From Candidatus Woesearchaeota archaeon (GTDB lineage: Archaea; Nanobdellota; Nanobdellia; Woesearchaeales; JASKKU01), in contig JASKKU010000007.1 in assembly GCA_030154045.1 (NCBI GenBank), forward strand, positions 1 through 35,321: a DNA stretch of 35,321 bases, given 5' to 3'. A program made the translations under genes and the position numbers. Positions 11,674 through 31,894 of this stretch are shown here, piece by piece (the stretch's first letter is position 1; every line of letters starts with the position of its first letter). The notes beneath the pieces were generated by a model, which worked only from the letters and a program-made list of their open reading frames with translations, did no database searches and was not told the DNA's origin.

Positions 11674-13926
11674 ATGAATAATTGTAAAACAAAAGTAATG
11701 TTAGAAGGGGATGAGTATATTCTGATGGTTGATTGTAATCAATGCCCTCTTTCTGCCTCACTAGAAGACAACAAAGAATGTATGAATACGATATTTTCAT
11801 CTTTGCTAAAAAATAAAAATGTAACAAAAGTCGTTTTATCTCAAAAAAGAGATTATGAATATAATGAAAAACAAATTTCTCTCTTAAAAGAAATTGCAGA
11901 AATTTATAGAAGAATCATTGAAAACAAAACTCGCTTTTCTTTAATTAATGCTGAAGGTTCAGTTGATAAAAAAGTGAGCGAGTACTATGTTCGATTTAAA
12001 AAATTTATTTTAAATGAAATAAAATCTGATCCTGTTGGAACTTATGTTGAGTTGGTTAGATTAAGAAGAGAAATAAAAGTTGAGTTTCAGGATAATTTAA
12101 ACAAAGTTAGCAATCTTTTGTCTATGCTCGATGAAATTATTGGCATGTTAGAGAGAACTAAGCTAATAACAATCCTTAAGCCTTATCTTCCTGGCTATGT
12201 TGTTGGCGATAGAAGAATTTATTCAAAAATCTTTTATCCAACCATAAAACCTGACTTCATGTTCTCAAAATTAATGGCAACATATCCGCACGAAGGTGAA
12301 GTTATTGATAGTTATTTCTTGCCTGATGAAACAGAGGTAACGATCTTCTCTTTGCCAGATAATCTGCTTAAACTTTATCACATCATTCCGCCAGAATTAA
12401 AATTGAGCGAAGAAGAATATACAATCTTAGATAAAGCAAGAGCGATTTTAACTGAGCACACACCCAATAGGGAAGAGTTCACTAACCCTACAAGAGTTAG
12501 AGATGTTTTCTATAATGTTGGGAGGGATTTAATTGAAGAGTTGGCTCAACAAGATAATATAAACTTGACACCTGAAAAAATTGACCAGATGGCTAAAATT
12601 TTAGTAAGATATACTGTAGGTTTTGGACTTATTGAGATTCTTCTAGAAGACGAAAACATTCAAGATATTACAATTAACAGCCCTCAAGGAAAAAATAAAG
12701 TCTTCTTGATCCACTCAAAACACGAGGATTGTTTTACAAATATCATCCCTACAACTGCAGATGCTGAATCCTGGGCTTCAAAATTAAGAATGATTTCTGG
12801 CAGGCCACTTGATGAAGCCAATCCCATTTTAGACACTGAAATTGAAGTTCCTTATGCTAGAGCAAGAGTTGCTGTAGTCACGCAACCTCTGAATCCGAAC
12901 GGATTGGCTTTTGCTTTCCGAAGGCATAGAAACAAACCGTGGACCTTGCCTTTGTTCATTAAAAACAGGATGCTAAGTCCTTTAGCTGCAGGTCTGCTCA
13001 GTTTTCTTATTGACGGCTCAAGGACTTTCCTAGTTGCAGGTACAAGAAGCGCTGGTAAATCTTCATTGCTGGGAGCTATGATGGTAGAAGTAATGAGAAA
13101 ATTCAGAATTATTACAATCGAAGACACTCTAGAATTGCCAGGTGAATATCTAAAAAACTTAGGATACAACATTCAACAATTAAAAGTTGCTTCAGCATTA
13201 AGTAAACAAAGTTCAGAAGCTAGCGCAACAGAAGGTATTAGAACAACATTAAGGTTAGGCGACTCAGCGTTATTTGTTGGAGAAGTAAGAAGCGAAGAAG
13301 CGCGAGCATTATATGAAGCAATGAGGGTTGGCGCATTAGCAAATGTTGTTGCAGGCACAATCCATGGGGATTCTCCTTATGGTGTATATGATAGAATTGT
13401 GAATGATTTAAATGTGCCAAAAACCTCTTTCAAAGCTACAGACATAATCATTGTTGCTAATCAAATAAGAAGCCCTGACGGTTTGAAAAGAGAAAGGAGA
13501 GTCCTTCAAATAACAGAGGTTAGAAAGAATTGGGAGAATGACCCTCTCCTTGAGAAAGGTTTTGTTGATTTAATGAAGTATGACCCAGAAGAAGATGCCT
13601 TAGTTGTTACGAATGAATTAATGAACGGTGATTCAGAAATCTTAAAATCAATTGCAGGCAATGTAAGAGAATGGGCTGGAAACTGGGATGCGATTTGGGA
13701 TAACATACTGTTAAGAGCAAAAATTAAGGAGGAGCTTGTAAAAGTAAGCGAAAACCTCAAGGATGATTCCTTGCTTGAAGCAGATTTCGTTATTGCCTGT
13801 AATGACCAGTTCCATAAGATTTCTGATAAAGTAAAAAACGATTTAGGCAAACTGGATTCAAAAGAGATATTTTCAAGATGGAAAGCATGGCTCGATTTCG
13901 CAGTAAGAAATCGAGAGAAAAGTTAA
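11674..13926 (+). CDS. Type II/IV secretion system (archaeal pilus) ATPase, GspE/VirB11/TadA-like
   Basis: 750 aa; Walker A AGTRSAGKSSLLGAMM, IITIEDTLELP, RLGDSALFVGEVRSEEARALYEAMRVGALANVVAGTIHGDS; archaeal N-terminal Cys motif CNQCPLSASLEDNKEC. Confidence 0.92.
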   Translation: MNNCKTKVMLEGDEYILMVDCNQCPLSASLEDNKECMNTIFSSLLKNKNVTKVVLSQKRDYEYNEKQISLLKEIAEIYRRIIENKTRFSLINAEGSVDKKVSEYYVRFKKFILNEIKSDPVGTYVELVRLRREIKVEFQDNLNKVSNLLSMLDEIIGMLERTKLITILKPYLPGYVVGDRRIYSKIFYPTIKPDFMFSKLMATYPHEGEVIDSYFLPDETEVTIFSLPDNLLKLYHIIPPELKLSEEEYTILDKARAILTEHTPNREEFTNPTRVRDVFYNVGRDLIEELAQQDNINLTPEKIDQMAKILVRYTVGFGLIEILLEDENIQDITINSPQGKNKVFLIHSKHEDCFTNIIPTTADAESWASKLRMISGRPLDEANPILDTEIEVPYARARVAVVTQPLNPNGLAFAFRRHRNKPWTLPLFIKNRMLSPLAAGLLSFLIDGSRTFLVAGTRSAGKSSLLGAMMVEVMRKFRIITIEDTLELPGEYLKNLGYNIQQLKVASALSKQSSEASATEGIRTTLRLGDSALFVGEVRSEEARALYEAMRVGALANVVAGTIHGDSPYGVYDRIVNDLNVPKTSFKATDIIIVANQIRSPDGLKRERRVLQITEVRKNWENDPLLEKGFVDLMKYDPEEDALVVTNELMNGDSEILKSIAGNVREWAGNWDAIWDNILLRAKIKEELVKVSENLKDDSLLEADFVIACNDQFHKISDKVKNDLGKLDSKEIFSRWKAWLDFAVRNREKS

Positions 13927-13929
13927 AAA

Positions 13930-16059
13930 ATGAACTCTGAAGAAGAAATTCGAGAGAAGTATATTAAAAAATTAAAAGAATCCTTAAATGAAGTTAATCA
14001 AGCAAGCACTGTTTCAAAAGTTTCTGATTTTGAGTTAGCTAACGAAATAAGGTCAAGTGATTATCTTGTGTTTAGGGAAGCAATGCTAACAAAACAACTA
14101 TCATTCTATGAAAAAATTTGCAAGACTTTTGGAAATGTTATTCAAATAAGCTTATCAAAAGATACAGAAGATAAAATAAAAGAAGCCATAGAAATCGCTC
14201 ATTTAAACATCAAACCATCTGATGCTGTTTCTTTCGCTGTATTGTTTCCTCTACTCATTGCCGGCGTGATTATGATTGCTTCTTTGGCATATTCAGCAGT
14301 ATTTCAGAAACCTCTTGACATGTTTCTTATGTTATCTGCGTTGATGCTTTCATTAGCTTTAATAGTAGTTTTATTAAAAGTTCCAGAATATATTAGCAAA
14401 AAAATGCAGACCAGAGCATCTGACCAAATGATTCTTGGTGTTTTCTACATCGTAAGTTTCATGAGACACACTCCTAACTTAGAATTAGCCATTGAGTTCG
14501 CAGCAAACCATCTACCTATGCCATTGTCTTTGGACTTTAGGAAAATTCTTTGGGATTTAGAAACAGGCAAGTTCCAAAACATTCAAGATTCTTTAACAAA
14601 ATACTTAGAAAAATGGCGAAAAACTAACCTGGAGTTTGTTGAAGCTTTCAACCTAATTCAAGGTTCCCTCCTTGAAGGAGATGAGAATAGAAGAATAGAG
14701 CTTCTTGATAAAGCAATTAGCGTGTTGCTAGAAGAAACATATGAAAAGATGCTTCATTTCGCTCAAGAATTAAAGGGGCCTATCTCAAGTTTGCACATGT
14801 TTGGTATAGTCATGCCTCTTCTAGGTTTAGTGATTTTACCTCTAATGGTTGGATTTCTAGGAGGGGTTTATTGGTATCACATTTCAATGCTTTACAACAT
14901 CATCTTGCCCTTAGGCGTGTTTTATCTAACAAAGAAATTCACAGCTATAAGACCTGCTGGAACTAGTGAAGTGGATTTAAGTTTTATAAAACAAAATAAG
15001 CCAGTATTGCTTAAAGGCGCAGTCATTGCTTTAGGAGTAATCTTTGTATTATTAGGATTATCCCCAATTTTTATACATGCAATGCTTGGCGATAACGCTG
15101 ATTTTGAGATTGCGGGTTTAACTTTTTTAGACTATAGGCAAGCAGATAATGGAAAATCTATTGGACCTTTTGGAACAATTTCTACATTGATATCTATTCT
15201 AATACCTTTAGGCATTGCTTTAGCCATTGCTGTTGATAAGTATGTTACAAATAAAACACTGATTAAATTAAGAGAGCAGATTGCAGAATTGGAAAAGGAG
15301 TACAGTTCTGCCTTGTTCCAATTAGGAAACAGATTAGCAGATGGTTATCCTATTGAAAATGCTTTTGAGAGCGTTTCCAATATCATGAAAGGAACTAAAG
15401 CAGGAAAGTTCTTTGCCTTGATTTCGGCAAACATCAAGCAATTAGGGTTAGGAGTTTACGATTCCATCTTTAATCCAAAAGTTGGAGCAATAAAAGAATT
15501 CCCATCAAACATTGTTGAAAGTTCTATGAAGATTCTAGTTCAAACAATCAAGAAAGGACCTCAAACCGCAGCAGTTGCCATAACAAACATTGCAAAGTAT
15601 ATTCAGGAGATTCATAGAATTAACGAGAGATTAAGGGATTTATTAACAGAAGTTACTTCTAGTATAAGAAGCCAGATTCAATTCATCGCGCCAATAATTG
15701 CAGGCATAGTCGTCGCATTAACTTCAATGATAACTGTAATAATGGGAAAAATAAAAGAACAGATTACATCAATCGCAAGCCAAGGCGGTCAAGCAAGTCA
15801 ACTTGAATCTCTTATGCACTTGTTTAGCAACAATATTCCGCCATATCATTTTCAAATAATTGTTGGCATCTTCTTAATAGAAATGGTTTACATTATGACT
15901 ATTCTACATAATGCAATTGAAAAAGGAGAAGATAAGATTAATGAGCAATACTGGATAGGCAACAACTTACTACGCAGCATAACCTTATACTCTCTCATCA
16001 CTTTTATTATGATACTTGTATTCTCTATGATCGCTTCAGTAATAAGCCTCTCAGGGTAA
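13930..16059 (+). CDS. Type II secretion/pilus assembly membrane protein, TadC/FlaJ (GspF)-like, duplicated domain
   Basis: 709 aa, two GspF-type modules with TM segments, starts 4 nt after the ATPase stop. Confidence 0.88.
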   Translation: MNSEEEIREKYIKKLKESLNEVNQASTVSKVSDFELANEIRSSDYLVFREAMLTKQLSFYEKICKTFGNVIQISLSKDTEDKIKEAIEIAHLNIKPSDAVSFAVLFPLLIAGVIMIASLAYSAVFQKPLDMFLMLSALMLSLALIVVLLKVPEYISKKMQTRASDQMILGVFYIVSFMRHTPNLELAIEFAANHLPMPLSLDFRKILWDLETGKFQNIQDSLTKYLEKWRKTNLEFVEAFNLIQGSLLEGDENRRIELLDKAISVLLEETYEKMLHFAQELKGPISSLHMFGIVMPLLGLVILPLMVGFLGGVYWYHISMLYNIILPLGVFYLTKKFTAIRPAGTSEVDLSFIKQNKPVLLKGAVIALGVIFVLLGLSPIFIHAMLGDNADFEIAGLTFLDYRQADNGKSIGPFGTISTLISILIPLGIALAIAVDKYVTNKTLIKLREQIAELEKEYSSALFQLGNRLADGYPIENAFESVSNIMKGTKAGKFFALISANIKQLGLGVYDSIFNPKVGAIKEFPSNIVESSMKILVQTIKKGPQTAAVAITNIAKYIQEIHRINERLRDLLTEVTSSIRSQIQFIAPIIAGIVVALTSMITVIMGKIKEQITSIASQGGQASQLESLMHLFSNNIPPYHFQIIVGIFLIEMVYIMTILHNAIEKGEDKINEQYWIGNNLLRSITLYSLITFIMILVFSMIASVISLSG

Positions 16060-16215: not shown

Positions 16216-16959
16216 ATGAAGGAGTTACAACTTATAGATGTTATTAATGAATTATCCTTAAATCTAGGAAAACTTAAGAGGTATGCTTTAAACAGCAATT
16301 TAGATGGAACTCTATTCAACAATCTTGATATAAAAGCGATGTTCCCTGTAGTAGAAGGGCCAATCAAGACTTATATCACGAATAACAGATATTTTGACAA
16401 TCACTTCAGAACCATTCTCGCAATAGAACATGATAAAATAGACCCTAAGAACATAGGTAGCATTGCTTCAGAGGTTTCAGAAATTTATGTTGATTGGTTA
16501 TGTTCTCAAACAGATAATTTACTAAAGTCTATTGAAGCTTTAAAAGACAAATATCTCTCAGACTTAAGAGAGTATAACCTTTTAAAAGAGAAAGGTAAAA
16601 CTGACCAGAAACTTGAGAAAAAACTTGAAAAGGAACAATCTGAGTTCAGCATCATTTGGGATATTCCAAATATTCCTGAAAAACTTTACAATCTAAGCAA
16701 TGGAATTAAACAGGTTGAAAACAGCAACTATGAAACGGCATATCTTTCAGAACTCTTAGAAAATATTTCAAAAAATGCAGAAAGCATAGAACCTCTAATG
16801 AAAGAATTGTACCAACTCAAAGAAGTCAAAGGGATGGTAACTCAAATAAATGATGTTGAAAAGTGTTTTGAAAAAATTCATGAAAGCATCAATGAAAAAC
16901 CTGAGATGTTCCACTTACTTGGCATATTTTATTTTTATTTTTCAAAACTTAAAAGATAA
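16216..16959 (+). CDS. Hypothetical helical protein
   Basis: 247 aa ORF, charged/helical; TATA-like catttaaaaa centred about 29 nt upstream of the ATG. Confidence 0.65.
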   Translation: MKELQLIDVINELSLNLGKLKRYALNSNLDGTLFNNLDIKAMFPVVEGPIKTYITNNRYFDNHFRTILAIEHDKIDPKNIGSIASEVSEIYVDWLCSQTDNLLKSIEALKDKYLSDLREYNLLKEKGKTDQKLEKKLEKEQSEFSIIWDIPNIPEKLYNLSNGIKQVENSNYETAYLSELLENISKNAESIEPLMKELYQLKEVKGMVTQINDVEKCFEKIHESINEKPEMFHLLGIFYFYFSKLKR

Positions 16960-16980
16960 AAAAATCTAAAGGTGAAAACA

Positions 16981-17706
16981 ATGTCATTAAATGAAAAAAA
17001 GCTTGAAGAAGCAATTCAATACTATAAGGATGTTTATCAAGTTAGAGATGAGATTAGAGAAAAACTAGAAATCAATGTTAATAATGACCTACAGAAATAC
17101 GTAAGTTCTCCTCTTTCAAAGATCAAAGTTGATATCAAATTTATAAACCGAAATACATATTACTTAAACATCAAACCAGGGGTTACTTCAAGCAAACCAA
17201 TAGAACTTGAGATACAAGCTTCTCCTGAAAACAATTTAGAATCTTTCATTGAATCGTATGAAAATGCTTACTTTGGAATGTTAAATTCTTTAAACGAAAT
17301 AATTAAAGAAAAGATTAAAGACTCAAAAGCTGTTTTTGGGATAGCAAAACCAAAAGTTTCAATAGACTTTGGAAGCTATGACCCTCTGTTGGATTTATCC
17401 TCAAAAATTGAAGAACTTGAATATTTAAAAGATGTTCTAGAAGAAAACCGCAATTATCATCCCAAACTTGAAAGCATATTAAACAAGAAAGAAGAGATGT
17501 ATGCTTTTTTTAAAAGAATCAAAGACTCAACTGAATACAAAATGTTGTTCTTTAAAAAATTCAACGAAGAATCTCAAAATTTCAGGTCAAAGAATGAATT
17601 ACTCGCCATTGAAAAATACATCAAAAAAATCATTAAAGAATATAAACACTTGAAGAAGTATCTAGAACTTCCCGCAACAGCAGCATACTATCATTTAAAG
17701 AATTGA
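16981..17706 (+). CDS. Hypothetical helical/coiled-coil-rich protein
   Basis: About 241 aa; start revised from 16972 (GTG) to ATG 16981 preceded by AAAGGTG (Shine-Dalgarno-like). Confidence 0.65.
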   Translation: MSLNEKKLEEAIQYYKDVYQVRDEIREKLEINVNNDLQKYVSSPLSKIKVDIKFINRNTYYLNIKPGVTSSKPIELEIQASPENNLESFIESYENAYFGMLNSLNEIIKEKIKDSKAVFGIAKPKVSIDFGSYDPLLDLSSKIEELEYLKDVLEENRNYHPKLESILNKKEEMYAFFKRIKDSTEYKMLFFKKFNEESQNFRSKNELLAIEKYIKKIIKEYKHLKKYLELPATAAYYHLKN

Positions 17707-18036: not shown

Positions 18037-18056
18037 GTTTAAAAAGCTTTTTAAAC
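18037..18056. promoter_or_regulatory. Symmetric bidirectional TATA-box palindrome between DUF357 and GGDEF gene 1
   Basis: Perfect 20-bp palindrome GTTTAAAAAGCTTTTTAAAC; its centre is 31.5 nt from both divergent ATGs (18015 minus, 18078 plus). Confidence 0.65.
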
Positions 18057-18077: not shown

Positions 18078-19145
18078 ATGATAAAAAAAGATTGCAATCT
18101 AAGTGATAATGAAAAACAGACCTTAATAGAATATATTAAATTCACGGATGATTTTATTAAAACCCCTGAAAAAGAACTTGCAAGAACAATTAATATGATT
18201 ATTGAACCTTTAACAAGAATCTGGAAAGCCAAACTTACAAAAACATTCTTTAACCACAATGGCATCATAAGTTATGACCTTCAAGGCATTGAAGATGAAA
18301 TCTTAAAACAAGAAATCTTAATAAACGCACATAAGAGAAGAGATTTAGAAAATATCCTCGAATCATCAGGAAAATTCGAAATCAATGAAAATATTCTTTA
18401 CATTCCTCATAATGAACAAGAAGAATCTGAAATATTTAAACCAATTCCATTAGAGCAAAACGAAATCAAAGGCTGGCATCCAAAGGACATGTTTCTAAGC
18501 ATTTATAGAAAGGGCCACAGGATTTATGGTTACACATCATTTGACCTACCTAAAGAAGAAAATCCTATTGAAAAAAGTATCTCAAACATTCATTATTCAA
18601 ACGCAGCGATATCTTTTCTTTTGGAAATGTACTACTATAAAAACATCGCGCCTTACAGAGATGCCCAAACAGGAGTTTATAATAAAAATTATTTAGAAGA
18701 AGAATTAAAAAGAATAAAAAAAAGCAATCCTAATGGGAATTATCTAATAATAAATATTGATATTAATAACCTAAAAAAAGTAAATGATGAATATGGGCAT
18801 TTAGAAGGAGACAAACGGATAAATTATGTTGCAGATAAACTCAAAGAAAATCTAAGAAATAATGAAATCATAATCCGTTGGGGCGGAGACGAGTTCTTAA
18901 TCTTAGCAAAAGATGTTAATATTGAAGAGGTTTCTGGATTATTTCGTCGTTTAAAGTCAATTCTAAGCGAAAACAAATCAACAGAACTTAAGGAGTTTTA
19001 TGGAGTTTCTATAGGCTTTGCATACGGTACTATAAACAGCGATGAAGACTTCGAAAAATTATATAGGATTTCTGACAAGATGATGTATAAAAACAAGAAT
19101 GCAAAGGCCATGCTTTATTTTAATCCAAAGCTCAAAGGCGAATAA
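18078..19145 (+). CDS. GAF-like + GGDEF domain protein (putative diguanylate cyclase)
   Basis: C-terminal NIDINNLKKVNDEYGHLEGDK ... IIIRWGGDEFLIL ... YGVSIGFAYG ... KMMYKNKN; N-terminal GAF-like segment. Confidence 0.9.
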   Translation: MIKKDCNLSDNEKQTLIEYIKFTDDFIKTPEKELARTINMIIEPLTRIWKAKLTKTFFNHNGIISYDLQGIEDEILKQEILINAHKRRDLENILESSGKFEINENILYIPHNEQEESEIFKPIPLEQNEIKGWHPKDMFLSIYRKGHRIYGYTSFDLPKEENPIEKSISNIHYSNAAISFLLEMYYYKNIAPYRDAQTGVYNKNYLEEELKRIKKSNPNGNYLIINIDINNLKKVNDEYGHLEGDKRINYVADKLKENLRNNEIIIRWGGDEFLILAKDVNIEEVSGLFRRLKSILSENKSTELKEFYGVSIGFAYGTINSDEDFEKLYRISDKMMYKNKNAKAMLYFNPKLKGE

Positions 19146-19206
19146 AAACACAACTCTTTCTTAATAAAAAAACAAATAACAACAGATTAATAAAAATAAG
19201 AGAAAA

Positions 19207-19217
19207 CTTTTTAAACA
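19207..19217 (+). promoter_or_regulatory. TATA-like element upstream of GGDEF gene 2
   Basis: CTTTTTAAACA, identical 11-mer to 18047-18057 upstream of GGDEF gene 1. Confidence 0.45.
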
Positions 19218-19247
19218 CAAGATACTAAAAAGTAAATTAATATACAC

Positions 19248-20312
19248 ATGATATCTAAAATGGCAAATTTACTAGTTTTAAAAAAGAAAAATGAGTTTAA
19301 CAAAAACAATGAATCAGTAATACACAAAGTTTTAGATGAATTTATAAATCTCAATGAAAACGAACTTGCTAGATATATAAATGAAAAGATTCTGTCTAAT
19401 ATTAAAATCTGGAAAGTTAAACTAACAAAGGTTTACTTAAACAACTCCCTTTCATCCTATGACCTTATAGGAATCTCTGATGAAATTTTAAAACAACAGA
19501 TTCTTATTGAAGCAATTACTAAAGATGATATAATTTCTCATAACGAAATTTTATCCAAATTCAGAATCTCAGACAATGTCATTTATATCCCAAAAGAAGA
19601 AAAAGACAGTGATGCAAGTGTAATAAAACTTGATCAAATAGTAAAACAAGGCTGGGACGAAGAAGATTTTTTGGCAGTGGTTTATTCTTTTGGGAAAAAC
19701 TTTTATGGTTTCACCTGCTTTGAACTGCCTAAGGTAAATAATCCCATAAATAAAAGTTTGGAACAGATTTCAAGAATTGGCAAAATCATCTCTCTCTTAC
19801 TTGATTACTATTTTTACCATAACATAGCACCTTATCTTGATTCACAAACAAAGATTTACAATAGAAATTATCTCAACAAATTCTTATCCGAACTAAAAAA
19901 TAACGATAACAATTTCTTGCTAATAAACATTGACATCAATAACCTTAAAAAAATCAACGACCTTTACGGCCATCTGGAAGGCGACAAAGTAATAAATTAT
20001 GTAGCTAAAACCTTACGACAATGCACTAGAGAAAATGAAAAAATTATTCGATTTGGTGGTGACGAGTTCCTAATAATTGCAGACAACGCAAACATAGACA
20101 ATGCAGCAAAATTGTTAAACAGGATTGAAGAATCGCTAAACCAAAAAACAGCAAACCTTAAATCATATAACGGGGTTTCTATTGGATATGCTATCGGAAA
20201 GATCTCATCAAAAGAAGAGTTCGAAAGGCTGTACAAACTTGCTGATGAAATGATGTATCAGAATAAAAAGAGAAAAAATGTTATACATTATCTCAACTCC
20301 AATAGGCAATAG
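19248..20312 (+). CDS. GAF-like + GGDEF domain protein (putative diguanylate cyclase), paralogue of the upstream gene
   Basis: NIDINNLKKINDLYGHLEGDK ... IIRFGGDEFLII ... YNGVSIGYAIG ... EMMYQNKK; N-terminal shared blocks IWKVKLTK, SYDLIGISDEILKQQILIEA. Confidence 0.9.
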   Translation: MISKMANLLVLKKKNEFNKNNESVIHKVLDEFINLNENELARYINEKILSNIKIWKVKLTKVYLNNSLSSYDLIGISDEILKQQILIEAITKDDIISHNEILSKFRISDNVIYIPKEEKDSDASVIKLDQIVKQGWDEEDFLAVVYSFGKNFYGFTCFELPKVNNPINKSLEQISRIGKIISLLLDYYFYHNIAPYLDSQTKIYNRNYLNKFLSELKNNDNNFLLINIDINNLKKINDLYGHLEGDKVINYVAKTLRQCTRENEKIIRFGGDEFLIIADNANIDNAAKLLNRIEESLNQKTANLKSYNGVSIGYAIGKISSKEEFERLYKLADEMMYQNKKRKNVIHYLNSNRQ

Positions 20313-20955
20313 CAAAGACATTACACTAAGAGCTTTAGAAACTCTAAAAGATTCCAATCTGATTATTTGTGAGGATTCTAGAAGGATAAAGAACCTATTG
20401 AAAATACACAACATTGATTACAAAGATAAAACTTTCATAATCAACAACGAGTACAACGAAAAGAAGCAACTAAAAAAAATAATAGAACTAATAAAAACAA
20501 ACAACATTGCTTGCTTAGTAACCGATGCAGGCACTCCATTAATTAGCGACCCAGGGTTTTTAATAATAAGGGACTGTATTAAACAAGAGATTCCTTTTAC
20601 ATCAATACCAGGACCAAGCGCTGCAATAAATGCCTTAATTTTATCAGGATTTCCGAGCCATGCTTTTGAATTCTTAGGTTTCTTACCAAAAACCAAAGAA
20701 AAGAAAAAGAAAATATTAAAAGGAATATCAAAAACTAGGACAACTATTTTTTATGAAAGTCCTTATCGAATTAAGAAAACCTTAGAGATTCTAAATGATG
20801 TCTTGCCAACAAGATTAGTCTGTATTTGTAGAGAGATGACAAAAAAATTCGAAGAAACTATAAGAGGAACACCTAAAGAAGTGCTTGAAAAGATTCACTC
20901 AAATCCAAAAGGCGAATTTGTTCTGTTAATTGCTCCAGAAGACTACAAGATATAA
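20278..20955 (+). CDS. rsmI: 16S rRNA (cytidine-2'-O)-methyltransferase RsmI family
   Basis: LYIISTPIGNSKDITLRALETL, DSRRIKNLL, VTDAGTPLISDPG, SIPGPSAAINALILSGFP, FYESPYRI; overlaps the preceding gene by 35 nt. Confidence 0.92.
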   Translation: MLYIISTPIGNSKDITLRALETLKDSNLIICEDSRRIKNLLKIHNIDYKDKTFIINNEYNEKKQLKKIIELIKTNNIACLVTDAGTPLISDPGFLIIRDCIKQEIPFTSIPGPSAAINALILSGFPSHAFEFLGFLPKTKEKKKKILKGISKTRTTIFYESPYRIKKTLEILNDVLPTRLVCICREMTKKFEETIRGTPKEVLEKIHSNPKGEFVLLIAPEDYKI

Positions 20956-27746: not shown

Positions 27747-29471
27747 CTATATGCCGAAATCTTTAGAAAGTCTATTATTTTTCCTGTTAAGATAAGTCGT
27801 ATGCAGTAGCTTATGGGCTTTCTCGCTTAAAGGCTTTTCAAGAAACTCTTCATATAATTTATTTATTGATGGATTAAGATGGCTTAATCTAACACTCTTC
27901 ATCTCGTCATTCTTTCTTAAAGCTTTAATTCTTTTCTGCACAATTTCCATATTTGTAGGAATTGGTTGACCGCCGCCACCAACACAACCGCCTGGGCAAG
28001 CCATAACCTCAATAAAATCATACTTGTCTAAATTATCAAAAATTTTCCTTGCCTTTCCCAAAGTCTGAACAACAGCAAACCGTATAGTTCTACCATTTAT
28101 TTCAACACTACCTTCTCTTAAAAAGCCGTCTTCACTAACATTACTAAATTCAAACTCCAACTTTTCCTGATTAGTAAGCAGATGATTAACAGTCCTTAAA
28201 GCAGCCTGGCATACTCCGCCTGTTAACCCAAAAATCGTGCCAGCTCCTGAAGACTCTCCCAAAGGAGAATCAAAACTACCTTCCTTTAACTTAGCGAAAT
28301 CTATGCCATAAGACTTTAACAGCCTGGCAAGCTCTCTCGTTGTCAAAACAAAATCCACATCTTCTATAAATTCATACCTTCTCGCTTCCTCTTTTTTTGC
28401 TATACAAGGCATTATAGAAACTAACTTCAATTGTTCAGGATGCTTTCCTATCTTCTTTGCAAAGTATGTCTTAAATACAGCACCAAACATCTGTTGAGGA
28501 CTCTTACAACTAGATAGATTTTCAATATGCTCAGGATAAAACTCTTCCACAAACTTAACCCATGCAGGACAACAGGAAGTAAACATAGGCAATTTTCCAT
28601 TGCCTTCAAGTCTTTTTATCAACTCATTAGCCTCTTCAACAATGGTTAAGTCGGCACCAAACTGAGTATCAAAAACATAATCAAAGCCAAGCATTCTTAA
28701 AGCAGTTATAAGCTTGCCAGTAGAGATTTCTCCAGCAGGCAACCCGAACTCTTCCCCTATGGAAACCCTCACAGAAGGCGCAATCTGTGCTGCAACGATG
28801 TAATCCTTATCATTCAAAATAGAAACAACCTCATCAGTCTCAGACTTCTCTTCCAAAGCACAGGTTGGACAATTAATCACACATTGACCGCAAAAAACGC
28901 ATTCGGTTTGATTTATAGGAACCTCATAAGCTGTGCTAGGCCTAACACTCCTACCTCTACCTGCATAAGTTAAAGCATTAACCGTTTGCAATTCACTGCA
29001 CACTTGAACACATTTCCCGCATTTTATACACTTAGACAAATCTCTAATAAATGCATAAGAAGAGTCATCCACATCTTGTTTTTCAGTAGGGTTCTCATTG
29101 CTTAAGATTTCAAAAGGTATCTCTTCAATTTCGTATTCGTTAGCATACTCAAAAAGCTTGCAATCTGTCGATTTATTACAAGACAAGCACTCCTGTTTAT
29201 GGTCAGCAATCAACAACTGTAAATTAGTTCTACGAGCATCAAAAACCTTCTCAGAATTCGTTACAATATTCATTCCTTCTTTAAGTTTTGTTGAACAAGA
29301 AGTCCTCAACTTTCCATCTACTTCCACAACACAAAGCCTGCAAACCGCTCTTGGTTCCAACAGCTCATGATAACAGAATGTTGGAATCTTTATGCCTATC
29401 TTTCTGCAAGCTTCCAAAACTGTTAAACCATTATCAAATTCGTATTCCTGTCCATTAATCTTTACTTTCAT
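27747..29471 (-). CDS. hydA: [FeFe] hydrogenase catalytic subunit HydA (group A, NADH-linked type)
   Basis: N-terminal [2Fe-2S], HKQECLSCNKSTDC (Hx3Cx2Cx5C), two 4Fe-4S motifs, H-cluster motifs TSCCPAWVKF, MPCIAKKEEARR, EVMACPGGCVGGGGQP. Confidence 0.97.
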   Translation of the reverse strand: MKVKINGQEYEFDNGLTVLEACRKIGIKIPTFCYHELLEPRAVCRLCVVEVDGKLRTSCSTKLKEGMNIVTNSEKVFDARRTNLQLLIADHKQECLSCNKSTDCKLFEYANEYEIEEIPFEILSNENPTEKQDVDDSSYAFIRDLSKCIKCGKCVQVCSELQTVNALTYAGRGRSVRPSTAYEVPINQTECVFCGQCVINCPTCALEEKSETDEVVSILNDKDYIVAAQIAPSVRVSIGEEFGLPAGEISTGKLITALRMLGFDYVFDTQFGADLTIVEEANELIKRLEGNGKLPMFTSCCPAWVKFVEEFYPEHIENLSSCKSPQQMFGAVFKTYFAKKIGKHPEQLKLVSIMPCIAKKEEARRYEFIEDVDFVLTTRELARLLKSYGIDFAKLKEGSFDSPLGESSGAGTIFGLTGGVCQAALRTVNHLLTNQEKLEFEFSNVSEDGFLREGSVEINGRTIRFAVVQTLGKARKIFDNLDKYDFIEVMACPGGCVGGGGQPIPTNMEIVQKRIKALRKNDEMKSVRLSHLNPSINKLYEEFLEKPLSEKAHKLLHTTYLNRKNNRLSKDFGI

Positions 29472-29482
29472 TTTATTAAAGC

Positions 29483-31234
29483 TTAATCTTTAGTAATAGC
29501 ATTAAACTTGCATACTTCAAAACACTTGCCGCAATGGATGCATTTGCTTTGGTCAATGAAATGCTTTTCTTTAGGTTGGCCCTCAATTGCCTGCACAGGA
29601 CAGTTCATTGCACAGACATGACAACCTATGCAAGCATCAGTAATAGTATAAATTACAGGACCAGATATCTTCTGTTCATACTCATTAATAAAAAACCTCA
29701 AACTCGATTCAATTACATTAGGAGTTCCTTGTCCCAAACCGCACAGAGAGTTATTCTTTACATAATCAGATAGCTTATTCAATAGATCTAAATCTTCATA
29801 ATTCGCATTATGATTTATTATTCTATCAATAATCTTCTTAAGTTGGACAACGCCTTCTCTGCAAGGAGTACATTGCCCGCAGGATTCCAACCTCAAAAAG
29901 TCCAGGAAGAAACTCACAAGTTTAAGTATAGAATCATCTTGATTTAAGGCAATCAAACCTCCAGAACCCAACATTGACCCTATTTCCTTTAAAGAATCAT
30001 AATCCAAAGCAATATCAAAAAGTTCTTTAGGTACTAAACCTCCTAAAGGGCCCCCAATTTGCACTGCCTTAAGTTCTTTCTTGCTTCTTGAACCTCCAGC
30101 AATATCGTATAAAACAGTCTTCAAAGGAGTCCCCATCTTAACCTCGATGATTCCTGTATCTTCCAAATCACCGCTCAAACACAGAACAACAGTCCCTCCT
30201 GAATTCTCTGTTCCTAAGTTGGCAAAGAATTCCGCTCCTTTCTCAAAAATCAGAGTTACAGATGCATAAGTTTTAACATTGTTTATGTTAGTTGGCTTTC
30301 CTAGAATTCCTCTCTCAGCAGGATACGGTGGCCTTACCCTTGGCTGACCTCTTTTCCCTTCAATAGATTTTATCAATGCAGTCTCCTCTCCGCAAACAAA
30401 CGCGCCAGCACCTTCCACAACTTTAATATCAAAAGAAACCTTGTTGAAAATGTTTTCTCCTAGATAACCATTCTCTCTTAAAATTTTTATCGCTTGTTTA
30501 ATTCTCTGAGAAGCCAAAGGATACTCTTCTCTTACATAAATAAATCCCTTCTTTGCACCAGTAGCATAAGCACCAATAAGCATGCCTTCAATAACAGCAA
30601 AAGGGTCGCTCTCTAAAAGGCTTCGATCCATAAAAGCTCCAGGGTCGCCTTCATCAGCATTGCATACCAAGAACTTGACATCTGATTGAGCTTGCCTTAA
30701 GAACTTCCATTTCAAACCTGTTGGGAATCCTGCACCACCTCTGCCTCTCAACTTAGATTTCAAAAGTTCATTTATAACTTCTTCTGGATTAAGCTCCAAA
30801 GCCCTTTTTAATCCCTTAAACCCATCATTCTCAATATATTCTCTCAAAGACAAAGGTTCAATAACACCGCATCTCCTAAGCAAAAACCTGTCCTGATATT
30901 TATAGTAAGGGACATCATTAATCTTTTCAAAGCTTTGATTATCTCTTTTATACAATAAATTCTCCGCAACTCTGTGATTAAGTAAGGAATCAACAATCGT
31001 TTCAACATCTTTAACTTTAAGATTTGTATATAAAATAGAACATGGTTCAACAACCATTAAAGGGCCTTTTCCACATAAACCTATACATCCAACTTCCTTA
31101 ATCTCAACATCTATGCCTTTATCACTAAACTCCTGCTTTCTTTCCTCAATCAACTGTTTCAACTTATCCATCACTGCAAGCGAATCACTCGCTCTGCATG
31201 CAGTTGCTCCGCAGATCCTTAGGGTATATTTCAT
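29483..31234 (-). CDS. hydB: [FeFe] hydrogenase flavoprotein subunit HydB (NuoF-like, FMN/NADH)
   Basis: GRGGAGFPTGLKW, CNADEGDPGAFMDR, GAGAFVCGEETALIKSIEG, ESCGQCTPCREG, C-terminal 2x[4Fe-4S]; ORF track start 31273 is a TTG, ATG 31234 (MKYTLRICG) preferred. Confidence 0.95.
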   Translation of the reverse strand: MKYTLRICGATACRASDSLAVMDKLKQLIEERKQEFSDKGIDVEIKEVGCIGLCGKGPLMVVEPCSILYTNLKVKDVETIVDSLLNHRVAENLLYKRDNQSFEKINDVPYYKYQDRFLLRRCGVIEPLSLREYIENDGFKGLKRALELNPEEVINELLKSKLRGRGGAGFPTGLKWKFLRQAQSDVKFLVCNADEGDPGAFMDRSLLESDPFAVIEGMLIGAYATGAKKGFIYVREEYPLASQRIKQAIKILRENGYLGENIFNKVSFDIKVVEGAGAFVCGEETALIKSIEGKRGQPRVRPPYPAERGILGKPTNINNVKTYASVTLIFEKGAEFFANLGTENSGGTVVLCLSGDLEDTGIIEVKMGTPLKTVLYDIAGGSRSKKELKAVQIGGPLGGLVPKELFDIALDYDSLKEIGSMLGSGGLIALNQDDSILKLVSFFLDFLRLESCGQCTPCREGVVQLKKIIDRIINHNANYEDLDLLNKLSDYVKNNSLCGLGQGTPNVIESSLRFFINEYEQKISGPVIYTITDACIGCHVCAMNCPVQAIEGQPKEKHFIDQSKCIHCGKCFEVCKFNAITKD

Positions 31235-31280
31235 TTTTTGTTCTTTTTTTCTTTTAAGTTCTTTTTCAATCAAAATTTTA

Positions 31281-31757
31281 TTATTCCTGCTTATGATTTC
31301 CTTCTGATTTCATAATTTCTTTAATCAAAGCTTTCATTTTGTTATAGTTAAGATTTCCATAAATCTTATTATTAATCCTGCAAACAGGCGCCATCGCACA
31401 AACGCCTAGACATCTAACTTCTCTCAAAGTAAACAACTTATCTTTTGTGGTTTGATTAACATCTATCTTAAGAACATCCTTTACAGCTCTTTTAAGTTCA
31501 CTACTATGATTTATATGACAGGCAGTGCCTTCGCAAACCTCAATAACATACTTTCCGCTAGCCTCTAACTTAAACTGGTTATAAAAAGTAGCAAGCCCAT
31601 AAAGTTTAGACAGAGGAATATTTCTCTCAAAGCTTATTTGTCTTAGAACTTTCTCGGGAAGATAGCCATACTTTTTATTTACTTGCGAAAGCTCTTCAAG
31701 AATACTAACTTTATTAAACAATTCATCAAGATTCTCAATATCCTCTTTCAAATCCAT
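31281..31757 (-). CDS. hydC: [FeFe] hydrogenase subunit HydC (NuoE-like [2Fe-2S] protein)
   Basis: CEGTACHINHSSELKRAV ... REVRCLGVCAMAPVCRINNKIYGNL; start ATG 31757 preferred, TATA ctatataaaa 31781-31790 about 29 nt upstream. Confidence 0.93.
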   Translation of the reverse strand: MDLKEDIENLDELFNKVSILEELSQVNKKYGYLPEKVLRQISFERNIPLSKLYGLATFYNQFKLEASGKYVIEVCEGTACHINHSSELKRAVKDVLKIDVNQTTKDKLFTLREVRCLGVCAMAPVCRINNKIYGNLNYNKMKALIKEIMKSEGNHKQE

Positions 31758-31894
31758 TGACAATAAAACTCTCGAAGTAGCTATATAAAACTTATTCTCA
31801 TCTCAAAAGTGAAAAAAACAAACCTTAAAATTCACACTAGATTAACAAAAACCTTAACAAAAACTTTTTAATAACAAGGAATCATCAATAAGTT

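Follow-up and report, generated by a model that had tools for sequence, protein, structure and literature searches.

Does an archaeon of the order Woesearchaeales make cyclic di-GMP (c-di-GMP)? The question is raised by two neighboring genes, each encoding a GGDEF domain, in a stretch of 35,321 nucleotides from a Candidatus Woesearchaeota archaeon (assembly GCA_030154045.1, contig JASKKU010000007.1; hereafter the window). For a long time this signal molecule was regarded as almost confined to bacteria. A 2018 census knew of a sole archaeal GGDEF domain, from one methanogen, and cautioned that contamination might explain the bacterial-type regulators of unfinished archaeal genomes (PMC5847659). 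A 2021 study listed more than 300 archaeal GGDEF matches, many of them in DPANN and Asgard archaea, and did not detect c-di-GMP in Haloferax or Sulfolobus, two model archaea (PMC8646023); a 2022 review called for confirmation of GGDEF domains in archaeal contigs (PMC10086821). Because DPANN matches were published earlier (PMC8646023), the pair described here belongs to an already known family. Our literature search, with subscription journals mostly outside its coverage, found no paper characterizing an archaeal diguanylate cyclase.

The first gene, GGDEF1 (18078..19145, plus strand), encodes a protein of 355 amino acids with an orphan N-terminal domain (residues ~1 to 190) and a GGDEF domain (residues 194 to 343). 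The second, GGDEF2 (19248..20312, plus strand), encodes a 354-amino-acid paralogue of the same layout (N-terminal domain, residues ~1 to 193; GGDEF domain, residues 197 to 343). An initial annotation had described two adjacent paralogous open reading frames with the motifs RWGGDEF, RFGGDEF, and NIDINNLKK(V/I)ND.YGHLEGDK; coordinates and strand prove exact, and all of these motifs are found in the two proteins. In alignment the proteins are 47% identical end to end and 44% identical within the N-terminal domain, and they form sister rows (support, 99/91) in a 50-row tree of GGDEF domains. Given this full-length identity and sister placement, the pair most likely arose by tandem duplication.

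A palindrome, TTTAAAAAGCTTTTTAAA (18038..18055, no strand assigned), is the probable common TATA region of GGDEF1 (plus strand) and a divergent DUF357 gene (minus strand). GGDEF2 probably has its own promoter, since a TATA-like element, CTTTTTAAAC (19207..19216, plus strand), lies upstream of its ATG. The end of GGDEF2 overlaps by 35 bases the start of a gene for an RsmI-like 16S rRNA (cytidine1402-2'-O)-methyltransferase (20278..20955, plus strand), and given this overlap the two genes may be translationally coupled. The RsmI-like gene matches TIGR00096 with an E value of 1e-70 and stands on an archaeal contig; RsmI, the 16S rRNA C1402 2'-O-methyltransferase, is typically a bacterial rRNA modifier. 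Upstream, at 11674 to 16059 (plus strand), lie genes for a TadA/FlaI-like secretion ATPase (T2SSE) and for a 709-amino-acid TadC-like membrane protein that no Pfam family matches, followed by two unknown open reading frames (16216 to 17706). We set aside a linkage of GGDEF1 to these TadA/TadC-like genes, as GGDEF1 is served by a divergent promoter region of its own.

A profile search recovered a complete GGDEF domain in both proteins, as the initial annotation had proposed, with scores well above the curated cutoffs: 114.1 bits for GGDEF1 and 120.3 bits for GGDEF2 with Pfam (cutoff, 23.8), in agreement with 106.9 and 114.7 bits with NCBIfam TIGR00254 (cutoff, 37.4). With domain E values of 7e-33 and 9e-35, respectively, the identification is not due to chance. 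The domain aligns over its full length with those of PleD-type cyclases and DgcR (6zxm; E value, 8e-20), which carry a REC input domain where GGDEF1 and GGDEF2 instead have a private N-terminal domain.

The active sites were likewise reported as intact, and residue mapping bears this out. The metal ligands are kept (D228 and D271 in GGDEF1, with equivalents in GGDEF2, in alignment to PleD and tDGC), as are the guanine contacts N236 and D245 in both copies, which correspond to PleD N335 and D344. The phosphate lysine K233 and the C-terminal lysine K340 are retained in GGDEF1, with the same residues in GGDEF2. The substrate and metal motif of GGDEF1, DINNLKKVNDEYGHLEGD (18759..18812, plus strand), holds D228, K233, N236, and D245, whose roles are assigned by alignment to tDGC, in which Asp126 and Asp169 are metal ligands and Asn134 and Asp143 contact guanine (PMC4215984). 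The GGDEF signature of the same protein (residues 269 to 273; 18882..18896, plus strand) is preceded by R260-x-x-E263, a version of the inhibitory site. D228, K233, N236, D245, GG.EF, and K340 do not vary between the two copies or across five further GGDEF proteins from archaea, and the catalytic residues are conserved between GGDEF1 and GGDEF2 despite divergence to 47% identity. All catalytic residues mapped from PleD and tDGC are present except the C-terminal Arg of PleD. The second residue of the DxD motif, Asn in both proteins and Ala in tDGC, does not belong to the named metal ligands of tDGC. We rejected the N of DINN as a lost metal ligand: numbering against PleD and tDGC assigns that role to the D before it, and this D is retained. 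Together, these residues make GGDEF1 and GGDEF2 look like catalytically complete diguanylate cyclase genes.

The closest comparison is with tDGC of Thermotoga maritima (PDB 4urg, 4urq, and 4urs; PMC4215984), in which the metal, guanine, and GGDEF residues are as in our pair, the Arg after the C-terminal YxxK is likewise lacking, and the second DxD position is likewise not Asp; 4urg and 4urs are among the best PDB sequence matches of the two proteins. In contrast, tDGC has an RxxD inhibitory site and another N terminus, and it is bacterial. The inhibitory sites of our two copies read RNNE and RENE (RxxE) rather than RxxD. The RxxD Arg and Asp are present in 57% of diguanylate cyclases (PMC4215984), so RxxE does not exclude membership in this group, although the product may inhibit these proteins less strongly or in a different way.

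Several of these residues also admit a different reading, in which the domains are nucleotide binders with weak or no cyclase activity, serving as GTP, c-di-GMP, or ppGpp switches or making linear dinucleotides and acting by protein contacts. The RxxE site and the missing C-terminal Arg fit such a role, as do the N and L that replace two phenylalanines of PleD (F330 and F331 in PleD numbering) and a genome without a standard c-di-GMP receptor (see below). However, all metal and base residues named for tDGC are retained in both copies, and tDGC is described as an active enzyme, yet it lacks the same Arg and the same second Asp. GGDEF-derived receptors, moreover, usually lose the GGDEF motif. 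We consider a binder role unlikely and retain the cyclase reading in what follows.

Any sensing would presumably fall to the N-terminal domain, part of which the initial annotation had described as GAF-like, with the suggestion that the two copies may read different ligands. Residues 1 to 190 have no Pfam match, with GAF absent at an E value of 0.1, and no match in a PDB sequence search; hhalign against three archaeal GAF domains gave a probability of 0.2%, with very shallow alignments. A two-row profile recovered no homologue of this domain among 287 further genomes from the order, and the matches to a full-length profile among 370 further genomes from the phylum were confined to the GGDEF part; a light search of bacteria found none either. 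The domain is therefore an orphan among the genomes searched in the order and phylum. AlphaFold, given the two sequences, returned a pLDDT of 53 overall and about 30 to 60 in the N-terminal region, and a single-sequence fold of the domain reached 33. In this low-confidence model the elements follow each other as H-H-E-E-H-H-E-H-E-E-long H, an order that a GAF domain leading into a signaling helix could have. The best Foldseek matches, aligned over the full length, are phytochrome-linked cyclases, namely, the Idiomarina bacteriophytochrome-activated diguanylyl cyclase (5llw, 5llx, and 6et7), in which a PHY domain (related to GAF), a helix, and a GGDEF domain succeed each other; with an rmsd above 20 Å and a low-confidence model, the architecture alone is comparable. 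A GAF domain is thus possible on predicted topology, while the sequence comparisons with Pfam, the PDB, and hhalign did not recover one.

We next consider the remainder of the circuit in the host genome bin, which is 805 kb in size and 95% complete and on which the gene absences reported here rest; its size and gene content point to a DPANN archaeon. The initial annotation had proposed a search for EAL, HD-GYP, PilZ, and MshEN domains, and HD-GYP alone was found. A protein of 495 amino acids is encoded on a different contig from the GGDEF pair (C25, 1348-2835), two genes from ftsZ. It matches HD_5 with 93.6 bits (E value, 1.5e-26) and carries HDAGK and HHEREDGSGYP, in agreement with both the HDxGK and the HHExxDGxGYP motif. 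Its best PDB match is the HD-GYP phosphodiesterase PmGH (4mcw; E value, 4e-24), from which it differs in its N-terminal part and, apparently, in the third-metal Glu, which is not evident. The gene looks like that of an intact HD-GYP phosphodiesterase. A second HD-GYP sequence, on contig C17 (L034, 5500-5850), is a truncated remnant without the N-terminal half and the HD motif.

EAL domains are absent from the host bin and present in 1 of 60 genomes sampled from the order, PilZ is absent from the host bin and from all 60, and neither MshEN nor ComFB was found in the host bin. The sole EAL match belongs to a PAS-GGDEF-EAL-like protein with a degenerate GGDEF motif, SLGGDKF. No c-di-GMP riboswitch was found within the window or in a genome search run without a positive control. 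HD_5 occurs in 21 genomes of the order, 14 of which also have a GGDEF match versus about 12 expected, so that GGDEF and HD_5 co-occur no more often than by chance; one genome of the host's own family has HD_5 and no GGDEF match.

The same search bears on which dinucleotide would be made. No DAC (the c-di-AMP cyclase) was found in the host genome, while the search was positive in Methanocaldococcus jannaschii, Haloferax, and Methanosarcina. This absence would suit a pair that makes c-di-AMP in place of the missing enzyme, and a product such as 3',3'-cGAMP would suit the HD-GYP protein, since 3',3'-cGAMP is a substrate of some HD-GYP enzymes, among them 5z7c, which the protein on C25 also matches. 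Against either product, the guanine contacts D245 and N236 are kept in both copies, whereas the Hypr enzymes that make cGAMP (GacA) replace the Asp corresponding to D245; retention of D245 speaks for GTP and against ATP as substrate. A product other than c-di-GMP thus seems quite improbable.

Our best reading of these sequences is a system in which two GTP-specific enzymes would make c-di-GMP, an HD-GYP protein would erase it, and a further receptor would respond to it. In each chain, a long helix would connect a private N-terminal sensor domain with the GGDEF half-site; ligand binding would cause two chains to dimerize through the helix, bringing two GTP-loaded half-sites face to face to form c-di-GMP. 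The HD-GYP protein from elsewhere in the genome would break down the product, which would be read by a receptor other than PilZ, MshEN, or ComFB. We infer enzymatic activity, product identity, dimerization, ligand sensing, and output from these comparisons. Counted against the cyclase reading are the lack of a detected receptor or riboswitch, the RxxE site, an N-terminal domain without relatives, a related genome with HD_5 and no GGDEF, the chance-level overlap of GGDEF and HD_5, and the truncated second HD-GYP. With these points weighed, we think it reasonably probable that GGDEF1 and GGDEF2 are genuine archaeal diguanylate cyclases whose helix dimers make c-di-GMP, with degradation by HD-GYP and a receptor outside the PilZ, MshEN, and ComFB classes.

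Within the order, GGDEF matches occur in 35 of the 60 genomes, a sample of nearly one genome per family. The statement that GGDEF is rare in archaea accordingly needs qualifying, also in view of the >300 published matches (PMC8646023). Several of the order's proteins have PocR-GAF-GGDEF, PAS-GGDEF, or REC-GGDEF architectures. The initial annotation had also proposed a phylogeny against bacterial GGDEF domains; our tree samples bacteria thinly, at 13 of 50 rows. Stand-alone GGDEF proteins of ~190 to 200 amino acids from a class-level family (f106) form an archaeal clade with support of 100/99 that includes one row from the order, and these proteins were probably kept vertically. Like the GGDEF pair, they are archaeal, with an intact site and archaeal neighbors, and they differ from it in lacking an N-terminal sensor domain, keeping the RxxD site, and occupying a separate branch. 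Three of the f106 genes lie near a gene for an archaeal D-aminoacyl-tRNA deacylase, and two of the three adjoin a gene for a divergent DUF5684-like membrane protein. Outside the f106 clade, archaeal and bacterial rows interleave, which, with few bacterial rows sampled, suggests repeated transfer. The nearest placed row to the pair is a Clostridia protein (support, 97/90), a placement biased by the retrieval of that protein with this query.

On the contig, archaeal genes stand on both sides of the pair, including those for an AglB/STT3-like protein, DUF357, a family-I ProRS, and a TrmI-like methyltransferase. The codon scores of GGDEF1 (-0.94) and GGDEF2 (-1.01) are close to the window mean of -0.98 (SD, 0.05), and both genes have a GC content of 0.30, like several neighbors. 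A TTTAA box precedes GGDEF1 by 28 bases and GGDEF2 by 38 bases, with comparable boxes at the TadA, ProRS, TrmI, and other genes. Because codon usage is host-like, the TTTAAA boxes resemble those of the neighbors, and the flanking genes are archaeal, GGDEF1 and GGDEF2 look native to an archaeal host; the contig is archaeal, as initially annotated, and the same three features led us to reject bacterial contamination. Elsewhere in the window (27747 to 31763, minus strand), a three-gene [FeFe] hydrogenase operon encodes a group A6 catalytic subunit, above the curated cutoff of NF040763, alongside NuoF-like and NuoE-like subunits. That the pair is a recent bacterial import or a binning contaminant without function in this cell, as the interleaved tree, the query-biased Clostridia placement, and the bacterial-like RsmI next door might suggest, is the least probable account, given the single 35-kb contig, on which archaeal genes flank the pair on either side, the host-like codon scores and promoter boxes, the lack of a bacterial homologue of the N-terminal domain in a light search, and an HD-GYP gene that sits on another contig near ftsZ.

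The fuller proposal of a native archaeal c-di-GMP circuit, with two ligand-gated cyclases bearing private sensors, one HD-GYP eraser, no DAC, and a receptor class as yet unrecorded in bacteria, is one that we put forward tentatively, as somewhat short of an even prospect. At this locus the GGDEF genes show host features and are embedded in an archaeal contig, and the small genome to which they belong also has an eraser gene. Concrete proteins are thereby at hand for testing the use of c-di-GMP by archaea, and there is good cause to seek receptors other than PilZ.
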